Source: an uncultured Amylibacter sp.
GTDB taxonomy: Bacteria > Pseudomonadota > Alphaproteobacteria > Rhodobacterales > Rhodobacteraceae
Direction of reading: 5' to 3'
DNA length: 64,000 bases
NCBI GenBank assembly: GCA_959347345.1
Contig: OY365738.1
Coordinates: forward strand, 1,364,001 to 1,428,000
The notes beneath the pieces were generated by a model. The model saw only the letters and a list, made by a program, of their open reading frames with translations. It was not told the DNA's origin and searched no databases. Within the stretch, counting starts at the first letter, position 1, and each line of letters opens with the position of its first letter. This document shows, piece after piece, positions 1,270 through 55,868 of the stretch. Made by a program: the position numbers and the translations under genes.

Positions 1270-2194
1270 TGCTCTGTCACTTTACGGAATAGCCCTGATT
1301 GTCACATTGATTGGCACGGCAACCCCTGTTTTACTGGCGGCAACGGGGGAATTGGTCGTTGAAAAAGCGGGTGTTTTAAATCTGGGAGTCGAGGGCATGA
1401 TGATTTTCGGCGCGATTGCTGGGTTTATCGCGGCGGTCAGCACGGGCAGTCCGTTTATCGGCTTTATCGCGGGGGCGACGGGCAGTGCGGTTTTATCGCT
1501 GGCGTTTGTGGTATTAACGCAGTATTTCTTGGCAAACCAAGTCGCCTCTGGTTTGGCGTTGACTCTGTTTGGCATAGGGTTGGCGGCGTTTTTAGGGCAT
1601 AATTACACGGGTATAAAACCGCCCGAATCACCGCAATTACACATCCCGTTTTTATCGGATTTACCGCTGATTGGACGCGGGCTGTTCGGCTATGACGCGA
1701 TGATTTATCTGTCGGTTTTGCTGGTCGGGCTGGTGTGGTATTTTCTGCGCCACACACGGGCGGGGCTGGTTTTGCGGGCGGTGGGTGAGAACCACGATGC
1801 CGCGCATGCTCTGGGCTATAATGTCGTGCGAGTGCGGGTTTTGGCGATATTATTCGGTGGAGCCTGCGCGGGGCTGGGCGGTGCGTATTTGTCTTTGATT
1901 CGCGTGCCACAGTGGAGCGAAGGGATGACGGCGGGCGCGGGCTGGATTGCGCTGGCTCTGGTGGTTTTCGCAGGATGGAAACCGTGGCGAGTGATATTGG
2001 GCGCGTATTTGTTTGGCGGGATTACTATTGCTCAGCTTAATTTACAGGCGTGGGGGCTGGATATTCCGGTGTATTATTTGTCTATGGCGCCGTATTTGGC
2101 AACGATTGTGGTGCTGGTGATTATGTCGTCTAATAGGAAGCGGGCGGCTTTGAACGCACCCGCGTGCTTGGGGAAAGTGTTTTTTAACGATTAA
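1262..2194 (+). CDS. BMP-family ABC transporter permease 2
   Basis: Second permease subunit of the importer, 310 residues from the ATG at 1262 (an in-frame upstream start at 1250 is possible but lies deeper in permease 1). The motif LNLGVEGMMIFGA near residues 41-53 is the partner-permease equivalent of the NIGAEGQF motif in permease 1 (YufQ/NupQ type). Long hydrophobic segments continue to about residue 295. The last residues (GKVFFND) and the stop are read out of the first units of a heptamer repeat array beginning at 2184, so the natural C-terminus may have been changed when the array arose. The receptor gene of this importer lies beyond an oppositely oriented ankyrin gene. Confidence 0.92.
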   Translation: MLDALSLYGIALIVTLIGTATPVLLAATGELVVEKAGVLNLGVEGMMIFGAIAGFIAAVSTGSPFIGFIAGATGSAVLSLAFVVLTQYFLANQVASGLALTLFGIGLAAFLGHNYTGIKPPESPQLHIPFLSDLPLIGRGLFGYDAMIYLSVLLVGLVWYFLRHTRAGLVLRAVGENHDAAHALGYNVVRVRVLAILFGGACAGLGGAYLSLIRVPQWSEGMTAGAGWIALALVVFAGWKPWRVILGAYLFGGITIAQLNLQAWGLDIPVYYLSMAPYLATIVVLVIMSSNRKRAALNAPACLGKVFFND

Positions 2195-2218
2195 CGATTA
2201 ACGATTAACGATTAATGA
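2184..2218 (+). repeat. Heptamer tandem array, unit TTAACGA (left flank of ankyrin cassette 1)
   Basis: Four perfect TTAACGA units followed by one TTAATGA, in register. The array overlaps the stop codon of permease 2. Its reverse complement (TCGTTAA units) lies at 2974-3008 on the other side of the ankyrin gene, so the two arrays form an inverted pair enclosing about 750 bp. Confidence 0.95.
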
Positions 2219-2221
2219 TTG

Positions 2222-2392
2222 GTTGTTAGAAATTGGAAGTTGGTTATTAGAGGTTAAGAGCAGAGGTTTTTTGCTTGCGCCCTCACTGCGTTCGGTTGCC
2301 CACCCGCCCACCCCTCCTGCGGAGAGCTGGACGGGGTTTTGTGGCTTTTGCCTGTCCTAGTATCTAGGCATAGCCTAAATAAATTAATGATG
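2222..2392 (-). repeat. Dispersed palindromic composite repeat, copy R1
   Basis: Read on the minus strand this segment matches 55628-55800 and, more loosely, 31311-31470. Shared landmarks in order are a TAAATTTATTTAGGC-like A/T segment, a GC-rich hairpin (arms CCCGTCCA and TGGGCGGG around a CTCC-GCA-GGAG core), a GAGGGCG or GGCGC segment, an AAAAAACC(T)CT tract and a CTTCCAAT segment. It has no open frame of note. It lies between permease 2 and the ankyrin gene, just inside the left heptamer array. Confidence 0.8.
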
Positions 2393-2403
2393 AATTATTA
2401 AGT

Positions 2404-2823
2404 TTAGGGGCGCAAGAGTTCAATAATTTCATTATTTACAAGATTTGGATTTTCCTGTGCATAGTCAAAAGGCGTTCTCCCGTTGTTATCGCACACATTC
2501 ACATTTGCCGCTTCTACTTCAATACCATCATTTATAAGAACATCATTGCAATGTAAAAGGGCACTTACTATATCAACATTATTATGCCTCGCTGCATAAT
2601 GAAGCGGTGTAGAATTATCCGAATCTTGCTCATTCACACGCGCCCCGTTAGAAATCAAACAAATAATTACATCGGGGTCTGGACAACACCAAGCAGCTTT
2701 ATGAAGCGGTCTAAACCCATTCCCGCTATGCATATTGACTAATTCCCTTATATGCGGGTTTCTTCTCAAATTTTCAACTGTTTTGTTGCTCCACTCTTGG
2801 AAATCGTTATCTGTCAAAACCAT
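2404..2823 (-). CDS. Ankyrin-repeat protein (cassette 1)
   Basis: A protein of 139 residues with no signal peptide. At least three ankyrin repeats are visible: GFRPLHKAAW near residues 37-46, NSTPLHYAARHNN near 70-82, and a C-terminal NGRTPFDYAQ near 113-122. Such repeats bind protein partners; the partner is unknown. The start is preceded by GAAAGGAAAAAAAG, a clear ribosome binding site. It is paralogous to the ankyrin gene at 17936-18559: both begin MVL-D, share the same upstream sequence, and end in a YA-type terminal repeat. The gene is AT-rich compared with its neighbours and lies against the importer operon, between its permease and receptor genes, enclosed by inverted heptamer arrays. 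That points to insertion as a cassette. Confidence 0.85.
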   Translation of the reverse strand: MVLTDNDFQEWSNKTVENLRRNPHIRELVNMHSGNGFRPLHKAAWCCPDPDVIICLISNGARVNEQDSDNSTPLHYAARHNNVDIVSALLHCNDVLINDGIEVEAANVNVCDNNGRTPFDYAQENPNLVNNEIIELLRP

Positions 2824-2847
2824 CTTTTTTTCCTTTCAGTTAGTTTT

Positions 2848-2934
2848 TTAATATTGCGAATCGTTTAATTCCCAATATGCAGGTGTATTTTTAATCGCTT
2901 TATTTTTTTTTGCAAGCTCAAAAAACTCTTTTAT
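2848..2934 (-). pseudogene. Remnant C-terminus of a second ankyrin protein
   Basis: Read on the minus strand, this stretch encodes EFFELAKKNKAIKN followed by TPAYWELNDSQY and a stop, preceded in frame by a TAA only four codons upstream. It aligns end to end with the last residues of the ankyrin protein at 18583-19416 (FEFAKYNSALKD then TKAYWALSDAQY, stop). It also has the same position, about 25-30 bases upstream of the next ankyrin gene. The locus therefore once held the same two-gene layout as 17.9-19.4 kb, and its upstream gene has been lost apart from this tail. Confidence 0.8.
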
Positions 2935-2973
2935 CACAATTTACAAACGAAAGGCAACTTTTTACAACCAAAA

Positions 2974-3008
2974 TAGTTCATCGTTCATCGTTAATCGTTA
3001 ATCGTTCA
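2974..3008 (-). repeat. Heptamer tandem array, unit TCGTTAA (right flank of ankyrin cassette 1)
   Basis: Five consecutive 7-base units: TAGTTCA, TCGTTCA, TCGTTAA, TCGTTAA, TCGTTCA. TCGTTAA is the exact reverse complement of the TTAACGA unit in the left array at 2184-2218. The array sits just upstream of the promoter of the BMP receptor gene. Confidence 0.95.
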
Positions 3009-3030
3009 TAACTAATTGTTAAAAAAACGC

Positions 3031-3058
3031 TTGCCATCCCCGCACACTAGGTTATACT
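3031..3058 (+). promoter_or_regulatory. Sigma-70 type promoter of the BMP receptor gene
   Basis: TTGCCA at 3031-3036 and TATACT at 3053-3058 with a 16-base spacer. It stands about 50 bases upstream of the ATG at 3109. A separate promoter makes sense because the ankyrin cassette separates this gene from the permease genes. Confidence 0.6.
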
Positions 3059-3108
3059 ACCATCACAAAATGGGAATACCCCCATATCATTTTACAGGAG
3101 AAACCAAA

Positions 3109-4247: not shown

Positions 4248-4513
4248 TTTGCTATTTGTTGCACGATTCGCGTGGGTAATGGGGGATGATGCCCACCGTC
4301 ATTTCCCATGGGGCAATTTGAACCTGCCCGACAAATCGGAGATTCGAGCGTAAGCAGACATGGCACAAAAGCCCTTTGGCATTTAGATGATAAAGGTGTT
4401 CGCCCCGCCGACTCCTGCGGGATCTGGGAGAGCATGATTTTCGTATAAATACCAACGGGATTTTGCGAAGGCAAAAGCCTTATCGTGTCGCTCCGCAAGG
4501 AGCGTCAATCAAG
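4248..4513. repeat. Non-coding stretch with dispersed repeat module D
   Basis: No convincing gene lies here. The segment 4316-4378 is nearly identical to 55471-55532: both contain GAACCTGCCCGACAAAT, GGAGATTCGAGCGTAAGCAG and CAAAAGCCCTT in the same order and spacing. The remaining bases hold palindromic pieces of the same style (CCCACCGTCATTTCCCATGG near 4291-4310). Together with the hairpin at 4204-4247 this forms another member of the composite repeat family. Confidence 0.75.
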
Positions 4514-11076: not shown

Positions 11077-11375
11077 TTTTTCATTTCCTTTTGATTCGAA
11101 AAATTTACGATTTATTTCGAACTGTTTTAATGTGCGCGACAAAAACAATTCATCGCATGTGTAAGGGCAAGCTACACGCTTATTTAACAAATGTTAAGTA
11201 GTTTTTGATGCTTTCAAGCTCTTTTTAATGCTTTTTATGCATTTTTGTGGCAAAATTCACACATATTTGCCCGAATCACTATGTTTATACTATGTAAATT
11301 TGTGAAAAATCGTGAAAAATTTGGGAAATTCGCGTTTTTATCACAATCCACCATCATAATCTTATCATAATCTTA

Positions 11376-16875: not shown

Positions 16876-17901
16876 TTACACCCACCCCGCCAGCTCTGTT
16901 TGAATAATATCGCACAGCACATCAATATGGGATTTTTGCGCGTTCAAACACGGGATATAGGTGAAATCGGTGCCGCCCGCGTGGATGAAACTATCCCTGA
17001 TTTCCTCATTAATCTCTTCCAAAGTTTCAATACAATCGGCAGAAAACGCAGGGGCAATCACGGCTATTTTGCGCTGCCCAGCCCGTGCCAAATCCGCCAC
17101 ACAATCGACCGTGGATGGTTCCAACCAATCCTCTGGTCCAAACTTGGATTGAAAAGAGGTGACGATTTGCCCGTCCTGAAACCCCAATTTCTCCCGCAAC
17201 AACCGCGAAGTTTTCTGGCAATGGCAATGATACGGGTCGCCCTTTTGCGTCAAATACCGTTTCGGCAACCCGTGATAGGAGGCAACCAAAACGGGCGTAT
17301 AATCCAACCCAGCATAATGCTCTGACACCGTCCCAGCCAGTGCGTCAATATAATTCGGGCGGTCAAAATACGGCGGCACGGTGCGAATCGCGGGGGCGTG
17401 CGGCATAGTCATCAGGGCGCGATAGGCTTCGTCATTCGCCGTGGCGGTGGTCGCGCCCGCGTATTGCGGGTAAAGCGGGAAGAACAGGATTTTATCCGCG
17501 CCTTGGGCTTTCATTTGTTTTATCACGGTTTTTATCGCGGGGGAGCCATAACGCATGGCAAAATCCGTGATGATTTTATCGCCGTAAAGTTTGGCTAGGC
17601 GGGTTTTGATGGCGTGCGTTTGGTCTTTGGTGATGGTTAAAAGCGGGGATTCGTCCGCCTGTGTGTTCCAGATAGAGCGATAGGCCGCCCCCGATTTGGA
17701 CGGACGCGTGGTTAGGATAACCGTTTGTAGCAAGGGTTGCCAGAGGAACGGGCTGTAATCTATCACACGGCGGTCGGATAGGAATTGGTTTAGGTAGCGG
17801 CGCATTGACCAATAATCCGTAGCCTCTGGCGTGCCGAGGTTGCAGATAATCACGCCGATTTTTTGCGGGGGGATGGGGGGGTGGTCTGGCGGTGCGTTCA
17901 T
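16876..17901 (-). CDS. hemH: Ferrochelatase
   Basis: Last step of haem synthesis: inserts ferrous iron into protoporphyrin IX. The 341-residue length is normal. Landmarks are VIICNLGTPEATDYWSMRRYL at the N-terminus, FFPLYPQYAGATTATANDE near 137-155, SYHGLPKRYL near 203 (iron-binding His), QSKFGPEDWLEPS and the second metal/acid site SADCIETLEEINEE. Its start codon abuts the heptamer array at 17901-17928, so the ankyrin cassette has come to lie directly in its 5' region. Confidence 0.97.
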   Translation of the reverse strand: MNAPPDHPPIPPQKIGVIICNLGTPEATDYWSMRRYLNQFLSDRRVIDYSPFLWQPLLQTVILTTRPSKSGAAYRSIWNTQADESPLLTITKDQTHAIKTRLAKLYGDKIITDFAMRYGSPAIKTVIKQMKAQGADKILFFPLYPQYAGATTATANDEAYRALMTMPHAPAIRTVPPYFDRPNYIDALAGTVSEHYAGLDYTPVLVASYHGLPKRYLTQKGDPYHCHCQKTSRLLREKLGFQDGQIVTSFQSKFGPEDWLEPSTVDCVADLARAGQRKIAVIAPAFSADCIETLEEINEEIRDSFIHAGGTDFTYIPCLNAQKSHIDVLCDIIQTELAGWV

Positions 17902-17928
17902 TAGTTGTTAGTTGTTAGTTGTTAGTTG
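17901..17928 (+). repeat. Heptamer tandem array, unit TTAGTTG (left flank of ankyrin cassette 2)
   Basis: Four perfect TTAGTTG units; the first base overlaps the hemH start codon. A reverse-complement array (CTAACAA units) lies at 19476-19517. The pair encloses both ankyrin genes, about 1.55 kb. Confidence 0.95.
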
Positions 17929-17935
17929 TTAAAAA

Positions 17936-18559
17936 CTATTGGCTTCTTTTACGCAATTCTTCAAGGGCATCAGTGCCTTTAAGAGCTTCATTGTTATCTG
18001 CGTAGTCAAGGGGTATTTGTCCCCTGCTATCTTTTATCTTTGCATCCGCACCTAATTTTAACAAAACCATAACCACATGGGGGTTTTGATTATTTTGCAC
18101 TGCCTCATGGAGTGCTGTTTGGCGACCACTAGAAACCGCATTTACATCTGCCCCAGCGGTTATTAATGCTACAAAAACCTCAGGATTTTTATTACGATTT
18201 GCAGCAAAAACAAGCGGAGTAACGCCATAATTATTTGGTGTGCTTACATCCGCTCCTGCATCCAGCATGATTTTAAGCAATTCAATATCTTCATGCCATT
18301 GCGCCACCTCATGTATTGGCATGCCACCGTTCTTATCTTTTGCATTTACCTCTGCCCCAGCATCCAGTAAAGCTTTGACTACTTCAGGACGTGCCTTTGA
18401 AAGCCCGCAAACACACCGATAAAGAGGTGTCTCCCCCTTGCAACTTCGTGCATGCACATCCGCACCATTATCTAGGTACTCTTGCAATTTTTTAAGAGTC
18501 ATTTCAAACCAAAAATTTGTATATGCATCTGCATCTGCCCAATTATCTATTAAAACCAT
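17936..18559 (-). CDS. Ankyrin-repeat protein (cassette 2, downstream gene)
   Basis: A protein of 207 residues without signal peptide, so probably cytoplasmic. Ankyrin repeats run from about residue 24 to the end: GETPLYRCVCGLSK, NGGMPIHEVAQWHE, YGVTPLVFAANRNK, RQTALHEAVQNNQ and a terminal RGQIPLDYADNNEA. It begins MVLIDNWADAD and follows GAAAGGATAAACAA; it starts 23 bases after the upstream ankyrin gene, so the two form an operon. Paralogue of 2404-2823. AT-rich compared with hemH and xsc. Target and role unknown. Confidence 0.88.
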   Translation of the reverse strand: MVLIDNWADADAYTNFWFEMTLKKLQEYLDNGADVHARSCKGETPLYRCVCGLSKARPEVVKALLDAGAEVNAKDKNGGMPIHEVAQWHEDIELLKIMLDAGADVSTPNNYGVTPLVFAANRNKNPEVFVALITAGADVNAVSSGRQTALHEAVQNNQNPHVVMVLLKLGADAKIKDSRGQIPLDYADNNEALKGTDALEELRKRSQ

Positions 18560-18582
18560 TTGTTTATCCTTTCAGTTAATAT

Positions 18583-19416
18583 TTAGTATTGCGCATCACT
18601 TAACGCCCAATAAGCTTTGGTATCTTTAAGTGCTGAGTTGTACTTTGCAAATTCAAAAGGCGTTTTCCTGTCTTCACTTTTTATTTTACCGTCTGCACCT
18701 GCCTTTAGCAAAATCATAATCACGTCAGGATTTTTAGTTTGAATTGCTGCCCAATGAAGTGGTGTATATCCGCTCCATGATGTTACTCCGCTTGTATCCT
18801 TGCCTTGTGCATTTACATTTGATCCCGCATCAATCAAAGTCATAATTATTTTAAGACTATTATGTTTTTCCCGCCTGCCCACCGCCGAATAGATCGGTGT
18901 TTGTCCCAACTTATTCCGCACCTCTAATTTTGCCCCAGATTTCAGCAAAACGTTAATTATTTCGGGGTTTTCATTTTGGCTCGCTGCCCAATGAAGCGGT
19001 GTGTCTCCATTCCTACTTCGTGCATTCACATCTGCACCAGCATCCAGCAAAACCTTAATTACTTTGGGGTTCTTATTGCCCGCGACTGCCCAATGAAGCG
19101 GTGTGTTTCCACTCCTACTTCGTGTATTTACATCTACGCCAGCATCTAGCAAAACCTTAATTACGTTGGGGTTCTCATTGCTCGACGCTGCCAGATAAAG
19201 AGGGTATCCATGCTCACCCTCTGCGTTCAAATCTGCGCCATTATTTAGACATGCTTGGACTTGTTCGGGAGTTATATTTATCCAAAAATTCTCTAAAACT
19301 TTCCACTCTTTATCCCCCCAACCCTCGCAATCCTGCGCAATCGCGGGCAACGCCCCGAAAGACAGAATCACTAGGGCAAGACCCATCCGTGCTATTTTCA
19401 ATAGTTTATTTTGCAT
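18583..19416 (-). CDS. Exported ankyrin-repeat protein (cassette 2, upstream gene)
   Basis: A protein of 277 residues with a signal peptide: basic start (MQNKLLKIARMG), a hydrophobic core to about residue 24 and a likely cleavage at PAIAQ-DC. The mature part consists of about six ankyrin repeats, such as SGNTPLHWAVAGNKNP and NGDTPLHWAASQNENP. It ends in TPFEFAKYNSALKD-like sequence, which is conserved in the remnant at 2848-2934. It is unusual in having a periplasmic or secreted partner (this gene) and a cytoplasmic-looking partner (next gene) in one operon. The repeats bind proteins; the ligand is unknown. Confidence 0.88.
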   Translation of the reverse strand: MQNKLLKIARMGLALVILSFGALPAIAQDCEGWGDKEWKVLENFWINITPEQVQACLNNGADLNAEGEHGYPLYLAASSNENPNVIKVLLDAGVDVNTRSRSGNTPLHWAVAGNKNPKVIKVLLDAGADVNARSRNGDTPLHWAASQNENPEIINVLLKSGAKLEVRNKLGQTPIYSAVGRREKHNSLKIIMTLIDAGSNVNAQGKDTSGVTSWSGYTPLHWAAIQTKNPDVIMILLKAGADGKIKSEDRKTPFEFAKYNSALKDTKAYWALSDAQY

Positions 19417-19475: not shown

Positions 19476-19517
19476 CTAATAACTAACAACTAATAACTAA
19501 CAACTAACAACTAACCA
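19476..19517 (-). repeat. Heptamer tandem array, unit CTAACAA (right flank of ankyrin cassette 2)
   Basis: Six 7-base units: CTAATAA, CTAACAA, CTAATAA, CTAACAA, CTAACAA, CTAACCA. CTAACAA is the reverse complement of a cyclic form of TTAGTTG in the left array. It is followed by TTTACAATTCCC, which recurs after the short array at 45737-45750 (TTTACAATCCC). Confidence 0.95.
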
Positions 19518-28540: not shown

Positions 28541-28680
28541 GTCTTGGTTTCCCTTTGGTTTGGGGGTTTTATGTCAATAAGGGGGTTATTAACAGTTTTT
28601 TGTGAAAGGTAAAGGGGGAAACTGCGTTTTTTTAGTTTTTAGTGATTAGGGGGGCGTTATTAGGGGGTCGTTATTTTCTC

Positions 28681-28752: not shown

Positions 28753-29331
28753 ATGCCAGCACTAAACACAATAGAATGTCGCCATACAAGACAAGGTGGC
28801 ACAGAGTCCCTCGCGATTTACTCTGAAGACATGAAATACCGTTATTTATTAGAACGAATCTGGGATACAGCCCCAGACACTCCCGTTCTAATGTTCGTTA
28901 TGTTGAACCCTTTAGCAGCAATACCAACAGCAGCATTGGTGCATAGTGACACTGCAATAGCAACATGTGAAAACCGCGCAAAAGAACACCATCATGATTT
29001 TGGTGGAACGGAATTTGGCGGATTTTGTGTGACAAACCTTTTTTCTTTTGTCCAGAAAGATAAAAATAATTACGAAAGAGTGGATGACCAGAGTGGCACA
29101 GAAAATCTTAGAATTATTGAAGAATACGCAAGAAGGCCTAATACAACAATCATCTGTGCTTGGGGTAATGAATGCAATGATGATCGGTTTGCAGAGCAGG
29201 TGGCGATAATAAAAAAATTGTTAGCTGGAACAGAACATCCTTTGCACCATCTTGAATCATTATCAAACAACCAGCCTAAACATCCAATCCATTTTACGTC
29301 TTCCGTAGATTTTAGTATATGGGCAGACTAA
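28753..29331 (+). CDS. DUF1643 protein
   Basis: A 192-residue cytoplasmic protein. The DUF1643 features are RYLLERIWD near 30-38, VMLNPLAAIPTAALVHSDTA (the MLNPS-A-D-like motif), GFCVTNLFSF near 95, and IICAWGNE near 136. Function of the family is unknown; members are frequent in accessory and phage DNA and next to restriction-modification genes. It is followed 36 bases later by a methyltransferase-HNH gene, in the same direction. Both face against the atp operon. Confidence 0.8.
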   Translation: MPALNTIECRHTRQGGTESLAIYSEDMKYRYLLERIWDTAPDTPVLMFVMLNPLAAIPTAALVHSDTAIATCENRAKEHHHDFGGTEFGGFCVTNLFSFVQKDKNNYERVDDQSGTENLRIIEEYARRPNTTIICAWGNECNDDRFAEQVAIIKKLLAGTEHPLHHLESLSNNQPKHPIHFTSSVDFSIWAD

Positions 29332-29367
29332 CTTTTTATAAATTTTATTCGCTCGGCGGACAAACAG

Positions 29368-30657
29368 GTGCAAAACACTTTTTACACAGGGGATAATCTT
29401 TATATCCTAAACGGCATGAACAGTGAAACGGTGGATTTGATTTATCTAGACCCGCCGTTTAATTCCAAACGCATCTATTCCGCGCCAAGTGGCAGTAAGG
29501 CCGCGGGGGCTTCGTTCAAAGATATATGGACTTGGAGCGATGTCGATACGGACTGTTTGGATGGGTTGGAAATTTACCCCGAGCTGGCGGAATATATTTA
29601 CGCAATCGGGAAAATCCATAGCAAAGGCATGATGTCTTACATCACCTTTATGACCCAACGAATCATCCAAATGCACCGCGTATTAAAGGACACGGGCAGT
29701 TTATATTTACATTGCGACCCTGTGGCAAGCCATTATTTGAAAATCGTTTTGGATGAAGTCTTTGGGCAGGCTAATTTTATGAACGAAATTATCTGGTGTT
29801 ATAGAAAATGGACGAACACCGCCAATCTGTTTCAAAAGAACCATGATACTATTTTGTTTTATGCCAAATCGCGGGGCAATCATACATTTAATAAATTATT
29901 TGATACAGAGACCGCGCAACGAAAACACTATCAAATCGGCTATCATACCAATGTTATCAAGGGGGTAAGGCAACTGATTGTTTATGACAGGGAAAAAGCC
30001 GCGCGGAAAATAACCCACGGTGGTTATGATAAAATCGTTTATCGCGAAGACCAGCAAAAGGTGAGCATGCCTGATTTTTGGGAAATCCCTATTTTGAATT
30101 CGCAGGCGAAAGAACGCACGGGGTATCCCACGCAAAAACCGCTGGCGTTGCTTCATAGGATTATTGAAGCGTCTTCAAACGCGGGGGATGTTGTGTTTGA
30201 CCCGTTTTGTGGGTGTGCGACAACTTGCGTGGCGGCGCAACAAACGGGGCGGCAATGGATTGGTATTGATATAGAATCAAAGGCGGCAGAGCTGTTGGTA
30301 CAAAGGCTCAGTGGAAAAAGCGATACAGGAGATAGAGATATACTGTTTAAGGATTTTATCCATACAGATAAAATTCCGCATCGCACTGATATTAAAGAGG
30401 AAAAACCCTCCGCCCCGATAAAAGACCGATTGTTTAAGGCACAAAAAGGGCTGTGCAGTGGCTGTGAAAAACCATTTGATAGTGTCAATTTTGAAATTGA
30501 CCATATTTTTCCAAAGAGCAAAGGTGGCGGTGATTATTATGAAAATTTTCAATTATTATGTGGAAATTGTAATAGGGTCAAGGGCGACCGACCAATGGAG
30601 TATTTGGTGGCAAAACTCCGTGCCCGTGATGAGGTGATAAAAAACGTGTCGTATTGA
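29368..30657 (+). CDS. DNA methyltransferase (beta-group order) fused to HNH domain
   Basis: A protein of 429 residues starting at GTG 29368 just after GGCGGACAAACAG. The amino-MTase motifs come in the order IV then I: YLDPPFNSKR near 31-40 (catalytic DPPF) and VFDPFCGCATT near 273-283 (AdoMet site). YPTQKP, the motif X region, precedes the latter. From about residue 360 it carries a zinc-type HNH nuclease domain: CSGCEKPF, FEIDHIFPKSKGGGD, then LLCGNCNRVKG. The methylated base and site are unknown. A nuclease fused to a methylase could form a one-chain restriction-modification enzyme, or the HNH part may be a mobility or repair accessory. The gene stops 2 bases before the convergent atpI stop. 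Confidence 0.88.
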   Translation: MQNTFYTGDNLYILNGMNSETVDLIYLDPPFNSKRIYSAPSGSKAAGASFKDIWTWSDVDTDCLDGLEIYPELAEYIYAIGKIHSKGMMSYITFMTQRIIQMHRVLKDTGSLYLHCDPVASHYLKIVLDEVFGQANFMNEIIWCYRKWTNTANLFQKNHDTILFYAKSRGNHTFNKLFDTETAQRKHYQIGYHTNVIKGVRQLIVYDREKAARKITHGGYDKIVYREDQQKVSMPDFWEIPILNSQAKERTGYPTQKPLALLHRIIEASSNAGDVVFDPFCGCATTCVAAQQTGRQWIGIDIESKAAELLVQRLSGKSDTGDRDILFKDFIHTDKIPHRTDIKEEKPSAPIKDRLFKAQKGLCSGCEKPFDSVNFEIDHIFPKSKGGGDYYENFQLLCGNCNRVKGDRPMEYLVAKLRARDEVIKNVSY

Positions 30658-31190: not shown

Positions 31191-31228
31191 TTTTTCTGTT
31201 TTTAATGTTGAGAGTGGGGTTTTAACCC

Positions 31229-31310
31229 TGCGGGGTCTTTTGTGCATATAGAGCTTTTGCCCGTAGGCAAAAGCCCATACACAAAAGCCTTTGGTTACAA
31301 GACGATACGT
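31229..31310 (+). repeat. Inverted-pair hairpin module A, left copy
   Basis: Nested hairpin: outer arms 31237-31244 and 31280-31287 (CTTTTGTG / CACAAAAG), inner arms 31253-31261 and 31266-31274 (GCTTTTGCC / GGCAAAAGC) with loop CGTA. The following GCCTTTGGTTACAAGA is shared with the right copy. The right copy lies inverted at 31800-31890. Confidence 0.85.
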
Positions 31311-31470
31311 TTGTTCTAAATTTATTTAGGCTATGCCTATATATAAAGACAGGCTTTAGCCAATAAAACCCGCCCGCCCAAGCCTCGCAGAGGGGTGGGC
31401 GGGCGGGAAGCCCGAACGAGGGGGGCTTGCCCCCAAGTGAGGGCGAAAACAAAAAACTTTTATCGTTTAT
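31311..31470 (+). repeat. Dispersed palindromic composite repeat, copy R2
   Basis: Same module order as R1 (2222-2392, opposite strand) and R3 (55628-55800): TAAATTTATTTAGGC, an AAAGACAGGC-type segment, a long GC hairpin, GTGAGGGCG and AAAAAAC. Here the GC hairpin has perfect 12-bp arms (CCCGCCCGCCCA / TGGGCGGGCGGG) around a CTC-GCA-GAG core. A second hairpin (GGGGG-CTTG-CCCCC) is inserted after CCCGAACGA. Non-coding. Confidence 0.8.
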
Positions 31471-31799
31471 TGTTAAAACCCATCGGTCATGTTTGGCACG
31501 GGTCGCGCGAACCCGAAGGGTGTGCGTCTTGGTTGTTAGGTGTTAGGGAGTTTGCGTCACCAGCGACTCTAAAATACACTGACCCAGTACAACCGATAAG
31601 CTGACGCGCACCCGTGGGGGTGAGGGTGCGCGCGACCACCCTTTGGGCGGTCGTTTCCTAGATTATTAGGTCTGCTCTAGAATAATGATTACCGAGTCTG
31701 CCCTGCGGGTCTTCGTCATTTCTTCGAAATGCCGACCAGTCAAGAAGTGGCAAAAAATCATTAATCGTTAATTTGTGCCTAGATGTAAAGACAGACCAT
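31471..31799. other. Hairpin-dense non-coding region
   Basis: I see no gene here. Several strong stems follow one another: GGGT-TCGCGCGA-ACCC near 31500-31515; CGCGCACCC / GGGTGCGCG near 31605-31636; GACC-A-CCC-TTT-GGG-C-GGTC near 31634-31652; and CATTTC-TTC-GAAATG near 31717-31731 inside a segment (31692-31745) matching 55371-55430. Two TCRTTAA heptamers lie at 31758-31771. The density of stems suggests a structured RNA or a nest of palindromic elements. Confidence 0.6.
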
Positions 31800-31890
31800 A
31801 GTAAATTTATAGAATCATTATCATCTTGTAACCAAAGGCTTTTGTGTATGGGCTTTACGCAAGTAAAGCTCTATATGCACAAAAGCCCCC
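31800..31890 (-). repeat. Inverted-pair hairpin module A, right copy
   Basis: Reverse-complement partner of 31229-31310. Outer arms 31839-31846 and 31878-31885 (CTTTTGTG / CACAAAAG) are the same as in the left copy. The inner arms differ but still pair perfectly: 31852-31858 and 31863-31869 (GCTTTAC / GTAAAGC). The adjacent CTATAAATTTACTAT segment (read on the minus strand) also occurs at 55551-55566. Confidence 0.85.
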
Positions 31891-31895
31891 GCTAA

Positions 31896-31937
31896 TCGTT
31901 AATCGTTAATCGTTAATCGTTAATCGTTAATCATTAA
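31896..31937 (-). repeat. Heptamer tandem array, unit TCGTTAA
   Basis: Five perfect TCGTTAA units followed by TCATTAA; the last overlaps the petC stop codon. Same unit and orientation as the array at 2974-3008, nearly 29 kb away. Confidence 0.95.
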
Positions 31938-35380: not shown

Positions 35381-35427
35381 TTCGTTTTCCCCGATTCGGT
35401 TAATCCGATTCGGTTAATCTTTTTCGG

Positions 35428-35983: not shown

Positions 35984-36051
35984 GCGCGTTAAATCGCGTA
36001 ACGATGAATCGCTAGGGGGGTGTTTAGCGGTTTTTTGGCAAGTGTCAAGTA

Positions 36052-36079
36052 GTTATTAGTTATTAGTTGTGAGTTATTA
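36052..36079 (+). repeat. Heptamer tandem array, unit GTTATTA (left flank of Sel1 cassette)
   Basis: Units GTTATTA, GTTATTA, GTTGTGA, GTTATTA. The inverted partner with unit TAACTAA lies at 36795-36822. The pair encloses the Sel1 gene, about 715 bp. Confidence 0.95.
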
Positions 36080-36111
36080 GTTTTTTTTGCTATTTGCAAA
36101 ATCCAAAAAAG

Positions 36112-36711
36112 TCAACACTCTTTGTAATTTGTGGCTTTGCATTGCTTTGCTCGTTTTTTGGCTTCTGCTAGTTGTTCGGAGGTCATATCGTCTGCAAGTG
36201 AATCTCGGCTATATTCGGCAGATATATCACCATTTGATGTGGCAAGGTTAAGCCACATGTGAGCGCGAACATAATCCCTTGAAACTTCTTTTCCCCACCG
36301 ATATAGGCTCCCCAAACTATATTGCCCTTCTGTAAGTCCTTGTTCAGCCGCGAAGCTGTACCATATTCCTGCCTCCTTATAGTTTTTGTTTAATTTATGC
36401 ATCGCACCTAAATTAAATTGTGCCTTTGCAACACCCTTTTCGGCGGCGAGTCTGTACCATTTTTCTGCTTGGCTATAATCTTGTAGAACGCCATGCCCTT
36501 TATCGTACATTAAACCTAAATAAAACTGTGCATATAAATCCCCTTGTTTGGCGAGGGGTTGCCAAATAGATAAAGCGGTTTTGTAATCGCGGTCATTGTA
36601 AGCAATTAAACCTGCGTCAATACTATTTGCGTCAGTATTATTTAAGACGAAATACAAACCACCCGCAAAAACCACAAGCACAATTGCTATAACTGCAAAA
36701 ATCTTTTTCAT
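36112..36711 (-). CDS. Sel1-repeat protein with N-terminal membrane segment
   Basis: A 199-residue protein. An N-terminal hydrophobic segment (IFAVIAIVLVVFAGGLYFVL, residues 4-23) acts as signal or anchor. Then four Sel1-type repeats: GDLYAQFYLGLMYDKGHGV, GVAKAQFNLGAMHKLN, GLTEGQYSLGSLYRWGKEV and a final NGDISAEYSRDSLA. Such repeats form superhelical protein-binding scaffolds. The start follows GGAAAGGAAGAGTT. AT-rich compared with neighbours and enclosed by inverted heptamer arrays, like the two ankyrin loci. Partner unknown. Confidence 0.88.
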   Translation of the reverse strand: MKKIFAVIAIVLVVFAGGLYFVLNNTDANSIDAGLIAYNDRDYKTALSIWQPLAKQGDLYAQFYLGLMYDKGHGVLQDYSQAEKWYRLAAEKGVAKAQFNLGAMHKLNKNYKEAGIWYSFAAEQGLTEGQYSLGSLYRWGKEVSRDYVRAHMWLNLATSNGDISAEYSRDSLADDMTSEQLAEAKKRAKQCKATNYKEC

Positions 36712-36794
36712 AACTCTTCCTTTCCAAGTTATTGGTTTTATACATGCAAAATAAAACTATTGCAATAATTCAAAAAATACCCCCTAATAAATCA

Positions 36795-36822
36795 CAACTA
36801 ATAACTAATAACTAATAACTAA
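36795..36822 (-). repeat. Heptamer tandem array, unit TAACTAA (right flank of Sel1 cassette)
   Basis: Units CAACTAA, TAACTAA, TAACTAA, TAACTAA, ending 14 bases before the mttB start. TAACTAA is the reverse complement of a cyclic form of GTTATTA in the left array. Confidence 0.95.
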
Positions 36823-36836
36823 AAACAGGAAAACAA

Positions 36837-38390: not shown

Positions 38391-38400
38391 TCGTTAATCT

Positions 38401-42291: not shown

Positions 42292-42805
42292 CTCGCGTGA
42301 TTTTATCCCCGTGCATATTGCGATTTTAACCGTATCGGATAGCCGTGATGCCAAAACCGATGGTGCGGGCGATATGCTGGCGCGTCTGATTGGGGAGGCA
42401 GGGCATAAGGTCTCGGCGAGGCTAATTGTCCGCGATGACCGTGCCAAAATTGCCGCGGCTTTGCGTGGGTGGGTTGCGGACGCGCAAATTGATGTGATTA
42501 TCAGCACGGGAGGCACGGGTTTGACGGGTCGCGATGTAACGGTGGAGGCGCACCGCGATGTTTATGAAAAAGAGATTGACGCGTTTGGAGTAGTCTTTGC
42601 CATGGTCTCTATGGATAAAATCGGGGTGTCGGCGGTGCAGAGCCGTGCCTGTGGTGGGGTCGCGGGTGGGACGTATTTGTTTGCCCTGCCTGGCAGCCCG
42701 AGTGCGTGTCGCGACGGCTGGGATGGGATTTTGAAGGCGCAATTGGATTACCGCCATAAGCCGTGTAATTTTGTGGAAATTATGCCGAGGCTTTTGGAAT
42801 TGTGA
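42281..42805 (+). CDS. moaB: Molybdenum cofactor biosynthesis protein B
   Basis: A 174-residue MoaB/MogA-type protein that binds or adenylylates molybdopterin. HIAILTVSDSRDAKTDGAGDML opens the fold, IISTGGTGLTGRDVT near residue 75-89 is the pterin-binding motif, and FALPGSPSACRDGWD is the second site. The ATG at 42281 follows AAAGGTGGCAAGG; an in-frame GTG at 42272 is also possible. It overlaps the UDG-like gene. A heptamer array follows its stop at once. Confidence 0.92.
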   Translation: MGNNSRDFIPVHIAILTVSDSRDAKTDGAGDMLARLIGEAGHKVSARLIVRDDRAKIAAALRGWVADAQIDVIISTGGTGLTGRDVTVEAHRDVYEKEIDAFGVVFAMVSMDKIGVSAVQSRACGGVAGGTYLFALPGSPSACRDGWDGILKAQLDYRHKPCNFVEIMPRLLEL

Positions 42806-42810
42806 GGGGT

Positions 42811-42838
42811 GAATGGTGAATGGTGAATGGTGAATGGT
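42811..42838 (+). repeat. Heptamer tandem array, unit GAATGGT
   Basis: Four perfect GAATGGT units six bases after the moaB stop, continuing into GAATTGC. The reverse complement of the cyclic form AATGGTG is CACCATT, a unit of the array at 55813-55868. It marks the left border of an AT-rich segment that reaches to leuS. Confidence 0.95.
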
Positions 42839-42919
42839 GAATTGCCATTTTTTTGTTTTTGGTTATGAATTAGTGTGTGGCATAATTGCCACATATAAAA
42901 TTTACCCTTATTTTTATGC

Positions 42920-43292: not shown

Positions 43293-43553
43293 ATGAAACC
43301 GAAAATAAAAGAGATACATAAACAAAAATTGATGGAAAGGATGACGCAGAACATAATCGCAAGTCTGGTAAAATTCAAAGCAATTGATGATTTTCTTTTT
43401 AGTGCTGGCATTAGTCCAACTTTTGACCTCGTCTCAAATGTTGGGGTAGAAAAATATGTAATGGATAGGCTATCCCGTACTCCTACCGAAAAGCTTTTAA
43501 AAATCGCACAAGAAGAGCTTGATGGCTTGGATATAAGCGACTTGTTAAAATAA
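43293..43553 (+). CDS. Unknown small basic/helical protein
   Basis: An 86-residue protein I do not recognise. The ATG at 43293 is chosen (MKPKIKEIHKQKLMERM); an in-frame start at 43260 lacks a clear binding site. It looks all-helical, with a charged N-terminal half and an end of the type EKYVMDRLSRTPTEKLLKIA followed by LDGLDISDLLK. The pattern is somewhat like short N-terminal modules of abortive-infection proteins, but this is a weak impression. 15 bases before the next gene; AT-rich. Confidence 0.6.
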   Translation: MKPKIKEIHKQKLMERMTQNIIASLVKFKAIDDFLFSAGISPTFDLVSNVGVEKYVMDRLSRTPTEKLLKIAQEELDGLDISDLLK

Positions 43554-43568
43554 GCGAAAGGAAATAAA

Positions 43569-43970
43569 ATGGAAGACATCAAAAAAATGAACCCAATTAC
43601 ATTGCAAGCTAAATTTTATACACCCAAATATAAAAATGAAGACCCTTATAACTTTATCTTTGACAATAATAACTTAACTGTTCAATACGCTCCAAATCCC
43701 GAAACAACATGTGCAAGAGCTACTTGGGATAACCTTGATTCTGACGCAATATGGACGGAAAAAGGTAAAGGATTGTTTAGGATATTGGCTAACGACCTAA
43801 TCCATCCACCACATGTCTTACCCGACTTATTAGAATACCTTTGGAAAAAATGGAGGCTTGGAGAACTTAAGAGCAACCAATTACAAGAGGAGTTGATTGC
43901 ACTGATAGACTATGTAAATGCTTGCCAGAAAGTAAAGCCTACTACTGAATTTTGGCAGAAGAAATTATAA
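43569..43970 (+). CDS. Unknown soluble protein
   Basis: A 133-residue protein I do not recognise. The start follows GCGAAAGGAAATAAA. No signal peptide or membrane segment. Visible features are aromatic-rich strands in the first half (FYTPKYKNEDPYNFIFDNNN), then KGLFRILANDLIHPPHVLPDLLEYLWKKW and a helical end. It follows the 86-residue gene by 15 bases, so the two are likely co-translated. AT-rich and unlike flanking housekeeping genes in codon use. Possibly part of a two-component defence or toxin-antitoxin unit, not proven. Confidence 0.6.
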   Translation: MEDIKKMNPITLQAKFYTPKYKNEDPYNFIFDNNNLTVQYAPNPETTCARATWDNLDSDAIWTEKGKGLFRILANDLIHPPHVLPDLLEYLWKKWRLGELKSNQLQEELIALIDYVNACQKVKPTTEFWQKKL

Positions 43971-43980
43971 TTACAACAAA

Positions 43981-44006
43981 ACGGGCGAGCGTAAAACCCC
44001 GCCCGT
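43981..44006. terminator. Bidirectional intrinsic terminator
   Basis: Arms 43981-43987 and 44000-44006 (ACGGGCG / CGCCCGT) with A bases before and seven T after. It lies 11 bases after the 133-residue gene on the plus strand and close after the lipoprotein stop on the minus strand, serving both. Confidence 0.8.
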
Positions 44007-44009
44007 TTT

Positions 44010-45497
44010 TTATTCAGCAGGCGGACGGGCAACAAACCCGCCAGCATAATCATCACGGTCTGCTGCATCACTGATAAAAGCCCCAACCGCCCCCTCTTGT
44101 CCTATTAAACCAATTAGAGTTCCGCTTGTATTGACACGTCCGTTTATAGCACGTCTTGCAGAACTAATTACAGAACGTTCAACTGTCCCTGTAATTACCC
44201 CTTTATTATCAAAACTGCCTGTTAGTGAATAATAGCTCGCAGAGCCCGATATATTTCCAGCTTGCTCTCCTGTGCTAAAACTAACAATAAGGGCAAAATC
44301 TCTAGATACATTAGTATTAGTATAAAACTCTCTTCCATCATTTCCTCTGAGATTAAATACAGAATTACCAATAGCTTGAAACATACCATTCCATCGGGCA
44401 TTTACAGTTGTTTCGGTTATCCGTGCACCTAAATCTGTCCCTGATAAAATTCCAGCATAGTAATACAGGGAAGCCTTAAAGAAAGCCACGCCATCCGCAC
44501 CATCCCCGCCGAAACCGTTAGATGCAAAGTTTAAGGTGGTAATACTTGGGGAAATACGTATATCTTTACCATCGACATAACCAGAATCCCTAGCATCTCC
44601 AAAATCTAATCCTGCTTCTGTGCCTTGCAAAAATTCGTGTTTGGGATTAACCGTATTTGGAACTTTGGGTAAAGGTGAATCAAGACTTTGCAACCAGCTC
44701 TTCGCAGTGGGTAATTTTTTGTATTCAAAATGTGTGCCACAACCCGCTCCATAGGGATTTTCCTCGCAAGCAGTAAAACCAGCACAAGCACCGCCTTTGT
44801 TAGAAGTGCAAAACTCAAAACGCTTTGCCCGTGCGACAGAATAGCTTTGGGTATCACAACCCGCACCAAAGGGATTTAGAATACAAGAATTCGCATCAAA
44901 CGCCCCCGTGCAACGCGCCTCGCCCGCGTTTCCTGCTGTAATACAATCATCAATCCGTGCCGATTCATGAATAGGCGTATCATCACAAAATCCATGAAAT
45001 ATATTGTCTTTGCAAACCCTGCTTATAGTTGTTTCACAACGCGGGGCGGTTGGGTCGGTTTCGCACATTAATTCATGTGTTTTATGATAAGCATTGTTGC
45101 TAAAGCATAAATCAGCATCAAAAGGGTTATCATCACAAACATTTTCAATAGCACTTACGCAAAGATTGTGCGTGGTATTTTCACGGCAAAAACTAATACG
45201 ATTCGCCTGTGCGGTTTTATAGTAATCTGTAAAAGTTATATCACACGCACCGCCGAAAGGGTCTTCTATACATGGATGGTCTGCAACGATAGGGGCGCAA
45301 CTTGCATCGGTTGCAAGGTCTTTTGTCGTGCATCTGTTAATAAGGGCGACTTGAGGGTCAACCACAATAGGCTCTTCTTTAGTGTTGCTTTTAGTATTTT
45401 TAACCGCACCCTCAGCAAGATTAACCGCCCCAACGCAAGCCGATAGGATGAATCCCGCCAACAGGCAGGGTATTATTTTTATTATTTGAGTCTTCAT
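44010..45497 (-). CDS. Cys-rich repeat lipoprotein with C-terminal barrel-like domain
   Basis: A 495-residue protein. The start at 45497 (MKTQIIKIIPCLLAG) follows AAAAAGGACAAGTT; lipobox ILSAC marks Cys-21 for lipidation. Residues about 55-285 hold roughly ten short Cys repeats of the form C-x-x-(D/N)PFGAGCD, as in CIEDPFGGACD, CILNPFGAGCD and CEENPYGAGCG. Each could form a disulfide-closed loop in the periplasm or outside the cell. Residues about 340-495 are the same module as in the 802-residue lipoprotein at 8668-11076: YYAGILSGTDLGARI, ARWNGMFQAIG, GSFDNKGVITGTV, GLIGQEGAVGAF, DYAGGF. Likely a surface lipoprotein; ligand unknown. Its 5' leader is highly structured. Confidence 0.72.
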   Translation of the reverse strand: MKTQIIKIIPCLLAGFILSACVGAVNLAEGAVKNTKSNTKEEPIVVDPQVALINRCTTKDLATDASCAPIVADHPCIEDPFGGACDITFTDYYKTAQANRISFCRENTTHNLCVSAIENVCDDNPFDADLCFSNNAYHKTHELMCETDPTAPRCETTISRVCKDNIFHGFCDDTPIHESARIDDCITAGNAGEARCTGAFDANSCILNPFGAGCDTQSYSVARAKRFEFCTSNKGGACAGFTACEENPYGAGCGTHFEYKKLPTAKSWLQSLDSPLPKVPNTVNPKHEFLQGTEAGLDFGDARDSGYVDGKDIRISPSITTLNFASNGFGGDGADGVAFFKASLYYYAGILSGTDLGARITETTVNARWNGMFQAIGNSVFNLRGNDGREFYTNTNVSRDFALIVSFSTGEQAGNISGSASYYSLTGSFDNKGVITGTVERSVISSARRAINGRVNTSGTLIGLIGQEGAVGAFISDAADRDDYAGGFVARPPAE

Positions 45498-45499
45498 AA

Positions 45500-45704
45500 C
45501 TTGTCCTTTTTCACAAAACGACAAGCTAACCTCCCAGCACATCAGTGCTGGGAGACAGGTAAGCCCCATACGCGGGTGCGATATATTCCTGCAAGCAGTT
45601 TTCTATTCTATCGCCCTCCCAACCAAATGGGAGGATAGACTGGAACACCAATCCTCTATGTGTCGTATGAAGGTTACCTGCCCTCGTCGACTCCACCACA
45701 ATAG
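45500..45704 (-). ncRNA. Structured leader or small RNA upstream of the Cys-rich lipoprotein gene
   Basis: No gene lies here. On the minus strand a -10 hexamer TATAAT (45714-45709) would start a transcript near 45704. Long-range stems then close a branched fold: CAGGTAA 45680-45674 with TTACCTG 45562-45556; CATACG 45669-45664 with CGTATG 45572-45567. Inside are GATTGG-TGTT-CCAGTC (45653-45638) and CTATCCTCCCA... with ...TGGGAG..GATAG (45638-45608). Then comes CTCCCAGCAC-TGAT-GTGCTGGGAG (about 45553-45531) and last CTTGTC 45525-45520 with GACAAG 45505-45500, which covers part of the Shine-Dalgarno. One helix pairs fully only on this strand (a T-G pair). I cannot assign a known class. Confidence 0.5.
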
Positions 45705-45736
45705 CCCAATTATATTTTGATTGCAAGTGGCAAAAA

Positions 45737-45750
45737 TAACTAATAACTAT
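45737..45750 (-). repeat. Short heptamer array, unit TAACTAA
   Basis: Two units, TAACTAA and TAACTAT, followed by TTACAATCCC. The same sequence follows the array at 19476-19517. It marks the right border of the AT-rich segment, about 80 bases before leuS. Confidence 0.7.
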
Positions 45751-53307: not shown

Positions 53308-53314
53308 CCATGCG

Positions 53315-53830: not shown

Positions 53831-53861
53831 GCTTTTTAGGCTTTTTTAGGATTGTAGGAAA

Positions 53862-54632: not shown

Positions 54633-54648
54633 GGCAAAGGAAAAAACG

Positions 54649-55029: not shown

Positions 55030-55034
55030 AAGAA

Positions 55035-55256
55035 ATGAAAAAAGAGATTCACCCAGATTATCACACGATTACCGTTAAAATGATTGACGGGACGACTTAT
55101 CAAACGCGTTCTACCTATGGGGCAGAGGGCGATACTTTGACCTTGGATGTTGATCCAACCGTGCATCCAGCGTGGACTGGTGGGAAGCAGCATTTGCTGG
55201 ATTCCGATGGACGGGTTTCCAAGTTTAAGAAGAAGTACGAAGGCTTGGGGTTTTAG
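55035..55256 (+). CDS. rpmE: 50S ribosomal protein L31, zinc-free type
   Basis: A 73-residue L31. [16 protein letters not shown] is the family start and the [16 protein letters not shown] end is typical. The four zinc-binding Cys of the C+ form are absent, so this is the C- (zinc-free) form, which does not depend on zinc supply. Last gene of the operon, followed by a terminator at 55322. Confidence 0.94.
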
Positions 55257-55265
55257 GTTAATTTC

Positions 55266-55293
55266 TAACGATTAGCGATTAACGATTAACGAT
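55266..55293 (+). repeat. Heptamer tandem array, unit TAACGAT
   Basis: Units TAACGAT, TAGCGAT, TAACGAT, TAACGAT, ten bases after the rpmE stop. Same unit as the array at 2184-2218. Confidence 0.95.
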
Positions 55294-55321
55294 GAATGAA
55301 TTATTAATTGTGAGTGATTAT

Positions 55322-55353
55322 AGCAAGCAGCCGTAAGGTTGCTTGCTTTTTTT
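55322..55353 (+). terminator. Intrinsic terminator of the rpsP-rpmE operon
   Basis: Arms 55322-55332 and 55337-55347 (AGCAAGCAGCC / GGTTGCTTGCT) pair over 11 bp with one G-T, loop GTAA, followed by a run of T. Confidence 0.9.
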
Positions 55354-55370
55354 ATGGCAGGTTTTTATGA

Positions 55371-55566
55371 GTGATGCCCTTCGGGTCTTCGTCATCGCTT
55401 ACGCGAATGCCGACCAGATCCAAGCGATGGCGTGGTCTTTTGCGCGTAGTCTCTTACGCTCATAAGGGCAGTTGAACCTGCCCGACAAATAGGAGATTCG
55501 AGCGTAAGCAGACGTGGCGCAAAAGCCCTTGGGTTTCAAGACTATAGATTCTCTATAAATTTACTA
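55371..55566 (+). repeat. Dispersed palindromic modules B and D
   Basis: 55371-55430 matches 31692-31745 (GATGCCC or CTGCCCT, GGGTCTTCGTCAT, a short hairpin, ATGCCGACCAG, TCAAG/TCCAAG). The hairpin stem differs between the copies (CATTTC-TTC-GAAATG there, CGC-TTAC-GCG here). 55471-55532 is near-identical to 4316-4378. 55551-55566 (CTATAAATTTACTAT) matches the minus strand of 31800-31815. Non-coding. Confidence 0.8.
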
Positions 55567-55627
55567 TCTGGAATAACAAGACGAGAGAGTGGATTATTTG
55601 CAAAGAATACTTGGGAATTGGTGATGG

Positions 55628-55800
55628 GTGATTTCTAAATTTATTTAGACACTATACAAGACGCTGAGCCAAACCCCAGCCAAAAAATAGCCCGTCCAGC
55701 TCTCCGCAGGAGGGGTGGGCGGGCGGGCGGCATTTCGAAGTGGCTTGCCACAAAGAAATGGCGCAACAAAAAACCTCTACCCTTAACTTCCAATACCTAA
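55628..55800 (+). repeat. Dispersed palindromic composite repeat, copy R3
   Basis: Same modules as R1 and R2. The GC hairpin arms are CCCGTCCA / TGGGCGGG with a T-G pair and a CTCC-GCA-GGAG core. Next comes an extra nested hairpin: CATTTC-GAA-GTGGC-TT-GCCAC-AAA-GAAATG near 55731-55756. It ends in AAAAAACCTCT and CTTAACTTCCAAT, which are shared with R1 on the opposite strand. Nothing coding is seen. Confidence 0.8.
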
Positions 55801-55812
55801 CCCCTAATCCAA

Positions 55813-55868
55813 AATAACCAATAACTCACCATTCATAATTCACAATTCATAATTCATAATTCACCATT
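55813..55868 (-). repeat. Heptamer tandem array, units CATAATT / CACCATT
   Basis: Eight 7-base units in register: AATAACC, AATAACT, CACCATT, CATAATT, CACAATT, CATAATT, CATAATT, CACCATT. CACCATT is the reverse complement of the array unit at 42811-42838. It ends 2 bases before the gcdH stop. Confidence 0.95.

Follow-up and report, generated by a model that had tools for sequence, protein, structure and literature searches.

The stretch analysed here (the window) comprises 64,000 bases, GC 49.4%, of contig OY365738.1 from an uncultured Amylibacter sp. It carries short tandem arrays of 7-bp units (heptads) that border seven inserts, E1 to E7, lying between genes regarded as core. Genes were called core on family and GC, and also on synteny for E1 and E7. 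Arrays occur at both ends of five inserts (E1, E2, E4, E5 and E6) and at one end of two (E3 and E7). The set of 12 is made up of 10 clear arrays plus the weak E7 left and E5 right arrays. The features are as follows.

E1 left array: 2184..2229, + strand; TTAACGA x4, TTAATGA, TTGGTTG, overlapping the stop codon of an ABC permease gene (1250-2194); weaker heptads continue to about 2275
E1 cargo: 2404..2823, - strand; ankyrin-repeat protein, 139 aa
E1 right array: 2972..3022, - strand; TTAACAA, TTAGTTA, TGAACGA, TTAACGA, TTAACGA, TGAACGA, TGAACTA; ahead of the ATG of a BMP-family gene (3109)
E2 left array: 17901..17931, + strand; TTAGTTG x4; flush with the start codon of hemH (- strand)
E2 cargo: 17936..19416, - strand; two ankyrin-repeat genes, 17936-18559 and 18583-19416
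E2 right array: 19476..19515, - strand; TTAGTTG/TTAGTTA; upstream of xsc (19594)
E3: 31191..31937, no strand; noncoding insert from tRNA-Glu to cytochrome c1
E3 inverted arms: 31230-31307 and 31819-31892, about 78 bp, 85% identity
E3 internal two-unit stretch: 31758-31771, inside the insert
E3 right array: 31889..31937, - strand; TTAATGA, TTAACGA x5, TTAGCGG; first unit forms the cytochrome c1 stop
E4 left array: 36050..36082, + strand; TTAGTTA/TTAGTTG/TGAGTTA; beside tRNA-Lys (35908-35983, - strand)
E4 cargo: 36112..36711, - strand; Sel1-repeat protein, 199 aa
E4 right array: 36784..36826, - strand; TTAGTTA/TTAGTTG; ahead of a gene (ATG at 36837) that weakly matches a trimethylamine methyltransferase
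E5 left array: 42803..42844, + strand; TGAGGGG, TGAATGG x4, TGAATTG; first heptad forms the MoCF stop, native tail lost
E5 cargo: 43293..45569 as a whole, no strand; small ORF without Pfam match (43293-43553), M1E1E6-like protein (43569-43970, + strand), 519-aa protein without Pfam match (44010-45569, - strand)
E5 right array: 45735..45749, - strand; two units of TTAGTTA type; before leuS
E6 left array: 55256..55321, + strand; TTAGCGA, TTAACGA, TTAACGA, TGAATGA and weaker heptads; between the rpmE stop and a terminator-like hairpin that looks native by eye
E6: noncoding insert
E6 right array: 55813..55869, - strand; TGAATTA/TGAATTG/TGAATGG/TGAGTTA, with weaker heptads to about 55770; abuts the stop of an acyl-CoA dehydrogenase gene
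E7 left array: 28632..28675, + strand; degenerate: TTAGTTT, TTAGTGA, TTAGGGG, GGCGTTA, TTAGGGG, GTCGTTA
E7 cargo: 28753..30657, + strand; DUF1643 protein and N6_N4 DNA methylase-HNH protein, in the atpI-atpB gap

Every array named in the initial annotation of this stretch was recovered within 1-2 bases, and the period of 7 stated there was borne out in the window. A periodicity scan at a score of at least 14 yields 10 segments of period 7 and none of periods 2-6, 8, 10, 13 or 15 (10 vs 0 vs 0 for periods 7, 6 and 8). Periods 9 and 11 give one segment each, period 12 gives two and period 14 nine, of which 7 overlap period-7 arrays or their heptads. The 80 loci taken from relatives (1.45 Mb) contain two period-7 segments, both poly-G.

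The annotation had also noted that most units share TTA. This description is too loose: the strict arrays fit TKARYKR, that is T-[TG]-A-[AG]-[CT]-[GT]-[AG]. Among 56 units, the main forms TTAACGA (14), TTAGTTG (9), TTAGTTA (7), TGAATTA (5) and TGAATGG (5) are accompanied by ten rarer ones, and none of these five has the GGG run of a quadruplex-type G-rich unit. The window holds 43 TKARYKR doublets against 0.42 expected from shuffles, a figure which describes the arrays and is no independent test since the grammar was derived from them. A stop codon (TAA, TAG or TGA) lies inside every TKAR. Units are almost uniform within each strong array. Unlike units also adjoin, as in TTAGTTA-TGAACGA (3002-3015) and TGAATTA-TTAATTG (55297-55310), so that the arrays do not correspond to plain slippage of one unit. 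Degenerate heptads extend beyond some arrays, for example at 2219-2275 and 55780-55821 (to about 55770), and an inward decay of the heptads, such as outward growth of arrays would give, stands out at E1 left and E6 right. A candidate tip motif, GCGTTTTTTTAA, was dropped: its looser form gave 5 matches vs 0.91 expected, only two of them at arrays.

Noncoding DNA makes up 8.8% of the annotated stretch, yet all 12 arrays are mainly noncoding (on an approximate gene list), in agreement with their earlier placement between genes. Intergenic stretches of at least 100 bp number 18, 10 with an array and 8 without. The arrays also follow a strand rule. TKARYKR reads into the insert, away from the core gene beside it, in 12 of 12 arrays (9 of 12, by our own reckoning, if scored by the nearest gene of whatever kind), and paired arrays therefore face each other. 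The matched pairs previously described are thus present, but in inverted and not direct orientation, left arrays lying on the + strand and right arrays on the - strand. Restriction to the borders of accessory DNA, also claimed earlier, applies to most arrays; taken strictly, it fails at 55256-55321, at 31758-31771 and for weak repeats in short gaps. A weak repeat at 38387-38413 lies in the short gap between convergent genes (score 23.6; the highest of 20 shuffles reaches 23.2), and a 14-bp tandem repeat with two heptads per unit (35391-35430) fills the gap between the convergent spoU-like and aroQ genes.

Each of the five arrays at 3' gene ends overlaps or directly adjoins a stop codon, that of the permease, cytochrome c1, MoCF, rpmE or acyl-CoA dehydrogenase gene. 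The seven on 5' sides lie at 0 bp from hemH, 10-14 bp from the gene at 36837, about 66 bp from tRNA-Lys and xsc, and 79, 86 and 91 bp from leuS, BMP and the atpB start, respectively. In two of the five genes compared, permease and MoCF, the native last codons are replaced and a heptad stop is used. For the permease the native ending is four residues long in 20 of 20 loci passed to the script (of 28), and for MoCF it is three to five long in 14 of 14 relatives; here, one to three other residues followed by the array stop take its place. Cytochrome c1, acyl-CoA dehydrogenase and rpmE stop at most two codons from the native end (13 of 80 loci compared for cytochrome c1, 14 of 14 for acyl-CoA dehydrogenase, end reached in 8 of 14 for rpmE). 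Downstream of cytochrome c1, those 13 relatives show, by eye, a terminator-like hairpin where the window has the array. At hemH the array is flush with the ATG (17850-17935) and no ribosome-binding site is visible; AGCAGGAAAA immediately precedes the start in 5 of the 14 relatives shown, the leaders being less clear in the rest.

Comparison with relatives ties two of the inserts to interrupted operons. Cytochrome c1 is 59-72% identical in the 80 relatives kept of 355 found, nearly all of which we take to carry Rhodobacterales genus names, and leuS, found in 31 of the 33 nearest-genus genomes, has 61-73% identity in its main matches there. The atpI-atpB and permease-BMP loci came from searches of 33 genomes, with distances estimated from protein alignments and main AtpB and BMP matches of 64-86% protein identity. 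The atpI-atpB gap is about 16-110 bp in 30 of 30 relatives' loci with both genes and 2119 bp here (E7). The permease-BMP gap is about 27-72 bp in 28 of 28 such loci (30 BMP loci were fetched, two without permease being excluded) and 914 bp here (E1). These 58 gaps contain 0 TKARYKR doublets and 0 period-7 stretches. Judged from these alignments, E1 interrupts an ABC-transporter operon and E7 an ATP-synthase operon, and both inserts are absent from the relatives. The tie to accessory DNA proposed at the outset is strengthened by the two inserts so demonstrated: the arrays exist, exceed chance by a wide margin and, at E1 and E7, the two sites open to such a test, go with inserted DNA. Joining the E1 flanks against 19 relatives gave the best score with the right flank taken from 3034, just outside the array. 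This is suggestive only of a native permease tail displaced beyond the E1 right array, and the suggestion is weakened because length alone favours joins near 3034. A shortening of the AtpI C-terminus by E7 led to no conclusion, the relatives being 0 to about 22 residues longer.

Terminal inverted repeats made of tandem repeats were found by self-BLAST for E1 (2180-2219/3026-2987, 85%), E2 (17901-17931/19514-19484, 97%) and E4 (36050-36080/36814-36784, 97%). In E2 and E4 the partner arms are mutual best matches. With an arm-pairing score covering E1, E2 and E4 (E5 and E6 omitted), 2 of 60 pairings, counting the true one, score at least as high as the true one does. The cargo varies from site to site while the array ends stay alike. 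GC ranges from 0.369 to 0.459 in the seven inserts vs 0.517 in about 40 kb of core genes. With PADLOC, three ankyrin proteins match the candidate PDC-M72A and the E7 methylase matches type II methyltransferases; in Pfam, one of the cargo proteins hits an 'integron cassette protein' model. No informative genomic context was found for homologues of the Sel1 cargo.

Other repeats occur in the window. A noncoding repeat, some 100-146 bp long and with 71-78% identity, is dispersed over three places in or beside heptad arrays (2218-2385; 31319-31418, - strand; 55678-55822, - strand). It includes GC-rich inverted stretches as well as a CTAAATAAATTTA-like motif, and gave 0 Rfam matches at the gathering threshold. 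A noncoding element was found in 0 of 33 relatives' genomes by a search that had no positive control, and two short pieces had 0 exact matches in viral contigs. A 62-bp noncoding repeat, 93.5% identical, is present at 4318-4379 and 55472-55533, one copy being outside the heptad-bordered inserts. Two large ORFs, 6686-8509 and 8668-11190 (- strand; 607 and 840 aa), have no Pfam, NCBIfam, PADLOC or PHROGs match. Their region contains a direct repeat (9354-10060/10164-10825), and a 68-bp stretch (9372-9438) recurs at 44030-44093 in E5.

The distribution of the heptads in other genomes was compared with that of the reversed TKARYKR pattern, used as a control whose counts were taken by hand from tables. 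Three consecutive units are present in 2 of 18 near genomes; in a family sample of 394 genomes they occur in 6 (control 3). Four units are present in 5 of 385 genomes of a class sample (control 7) and 15 of 398 of a phylum sample (control 18). By eye, several of the family and near matches lie inside genes or GC-rich repeats, whereas G011 has a real TGAATTA array. Since such runs are rare elsewhere and the control is about as common, the density in the window is exceptional and TKARYKR is not generally favoured; no general preference for it over the control was seen in the class and phylum samples.

Loci were examined from 12 of the 15 phylum-sample genomes with four units. Intergenic convergent TKARYKR pairs, their loops 14-44 bp long, were observed in three of these 12 genomes, at loci L316, L317 and L330/L346, which were picked out as striking rather than sampled blind. 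L316 and L317 have one pair each; L330/L346 has three, around the hsdM, hsdS and hsdR genes of a type I restriction locus that also holds a 23S rRNA-intervening-sequence protein gene. Long open frames ending in heptad stops are found there (451 codons in L316, 290 and 461 in L317, hsdS in L346). At L346:3100-5040, an hsdS-like ORF runs through arrays that lie in and around the hsdS locus, and the intervening-sequence protein gene lies between arrays in the same operon. In a blind set of 99 arrays (10 from the window and 89 from mixed-source loci, duplicates dropped), frames of at least 100 codons run into the array in 14 cases on the TKARYKR strand and 15 on the other; the figures are 22 vs 36 for 60 codons and 11 vs 7 for 150, and 36% of random positions reach a 100-codon open frame. 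Of 65 viral-contig loci, 48 have one array or none at threshold and 17 have two or more (hand count), L149 and L161 looking convergent. Six related viral contigs (L171, L172, L176, L177, L180 and L185) carry two arrays whose lengths agree from contig to contig and whose spacing is always 305 bases, so that the arrays look stable there.

The arrays may be regarded as the inward-facing ends of inserts between core genes, and the reading that leads, with a rough probability of 0.45, is that of a mobile element. Foldback-type transposons, FB among them, are those with terminal inverted repeats composed of short tandem repeats in varying number, and on the best reading the unit seen here would resemble such an element, composite and with heptad-built terminal inverted repeats. 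Given the inverted ends, the AT-rich cargo, the interrupted operons and the replaced gene tails, insertion with ends of this kind is the simplest account. The inserts would have moved as DNA units, mobilised in trans by an enzyme encoded elsewhere which would recognize the heptad array, and slippage or unequal exchange would alter array length. An array end falling in the last codons of a gene would be tolerated, as at the permease and MoCF genes, with a presumed benefit: TKAR always holds a stop and 7 equals 1 modulo 3, so that three units close all three frames, which may make such a landing tolerable.

Several observations weigh against this mobile-element reading. No target-site duplication was identified when the E1 flanks were compared with 19 relatives, which are too distant for a firm verdict, and none of the insert genes in the window was identified as a transposase or integrase (Pfam for all; PADLOC and PHROGs for all except 43293-43553). 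E3 has no left array, the right border of E7 has none, and E5 right has only two units; the E6 left array may itself be the insert, since the terminator beyond it looks native. The E1 and E6 arms are closer to other arrays than to their partner, and inward decay of the heptads is weak across the 12 arrays taken together. In the other genomes, 9 of the 12 showed no convergent pair inside the 3 kb fetched, the L316 and L317 arrays have no cargo, and the 99-array test rules out the arrays as general gene enders across bacteria.

The alternative that survives best is a two-step history, possible if rather unlikely, in which short-loop convergent heptad pairs, intergenic and able to fold into hairpins, arose or spread first and foreign genes later entered the loop, a safe and structured landing site. 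The cargo-free pairs of L316, L317 and L330/L346, ends that are alike while cargo differs between sites, and the 70 and 75 convergent pairs reported for two Xanthomonas genomes (PMC4692102) are all consistent with it. However, 0 of the 58 relatives' gaps has a heptad pair, although at 64-86% protein identity these relatives are distant, and the window itself has no cargo-free pair of strong arrays. The initial annotation had suggested an integrase target. In the simple sense of DNA entering an existing array this does not fit, since a split array would give direct halves and the pairs are inverted; the splitting of a single array by an integrase is therefore ruled out. A pre-existing convergent pair may, on the other hand, be such a target.

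Slippage products had been suggested as well. Ordinary slippage-made heptanucleotide repeats, tolerated only in intergenic DNA and with no role in insertion, appear unlikely. An excess of period 7 is reported for many bacterial genomes, with slippage put forward as the cause (Mrazek 2007, cited in PMC4692102 and PMC4679880), units are near-uniform inside strong arrays, and the reversed control is about as common as TKARYKR in the phylum, class and family samples. Nevertheless, pure slippage gives no account of one oriented grammar shared by many variants, of mixed-unit arrays, of a strand rule followed by 12 of 12 arrays or of the link to operon interruptions. Slippage could still lengthen arrays. 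Finally, paired arrays acting as regulator or nucleoid-protein sites, or in RNA-level control (translation, termination) of the flanking genes, seem improbable: opposite-strand paired repeats of Geobacter metallireducens have been interpreted as sites of a global regulator (PMC2700814), Beggiatoaceae TAACTGA arrays before start codons as possible translational sites (PMC4679880), and one array here replaces the hemH leader up to the ATG, but the adjoining genes have no evident function in common, the array sites coincide with inserted DNA, and the left and right arrays of E2 and E5 are 1.5-2.9 kb apart.

Heptamer arrays and convergent pairs are known already in other bacteria; here they are tied to inserted DNA at two sites. 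The cyanobacterial STRR heptamers of Calothrix are tandem heptanucleotides, and are likened to the present arrays by description only. These STRR heptamers are mentioned in PMC4692102, which describes the heptamers GGGAATC and GGGGA(C/T)T of Xanthomonas and Nostoc. Like the window arrays, those have a period of 7, are intergenic and form many convergent inverted pairs. They lie close to the ORF on their 5' side (mean 28 nt), and the arrays here are likewise close to genes; their units, unlike those of the window, are G-rich and quadruplex-forming (PMC4692102). Facing opposite-strand pairs of the Xanthomonas type are found at E1, E2, E4, E5 and E6 and not at E3 and E7. The passages of PMC4692102 compared here do not discuss inserts between the arms or empty sites. 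G. metallireducens has paired tandem sites of a heptanucleotide (MTYCTGA) and an octanucleotide, mostly as opposite-strand pairs, with a heptamer pair between proB and proA; it differs in the unit, in the regulator-site reading and in that the passages compared here mention insertion sequences only beside octamer (class 1) pairs (PMC2700814). TAACTGA arrays of Beggiatoaceae, cyanobacteria and Bacteroidetes, for which a mobile element and gene rearrangement were considered, are also heptamers, intergenic, near start codons, patchy and at some sites absent from relatives. However, a single unit was studied, mostly forward to the start codon, with one indirect repeat among 169 direct sets in the main genome (PMC4679880). 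In Coxiella, heptamers upstream of the intervening-sequence protein vary from two to three copies among strains (PMC4990558), and Borg tandem repeats are a further published case (PMC9879509).

Tandem-repeat terminal inverted repeats with variable cargo are shared with the foldback transposons Tm1 of nematodes (PMC3169594) and Galileo of Drosophila (PMC4168063). Unlike the window inserts these are eukaryotic, and Tm1 has 9-bp target duplications and, in some copies, a putative transposase, neither of which is seen here (PMC3169594). A widespread and hitherto unrecognised prokaryotic foldback class of mobile units, with stop-codon heptad ends that close all frames and land flush with gene ends, would explain the scattered arrays of Xanthomonas, Nostoc, Beggiatoaceae and Geobacter, and is a doubtful extension of the mobile-element reading. 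The initial annotation knew of no account in this lineage; one narrow literature search found none, while close analogues are published for other bacteria. No published reading of bacterial heptamer arrays as insert ends was found in the open-licence literature, and in the papers compared here the published readings are slippage products or regulator sites. If the mobile-element reading is true, convergent pairs would mark the entry points of foreign genes, and an enzyme that makes or recognizes heptads would await discovery.

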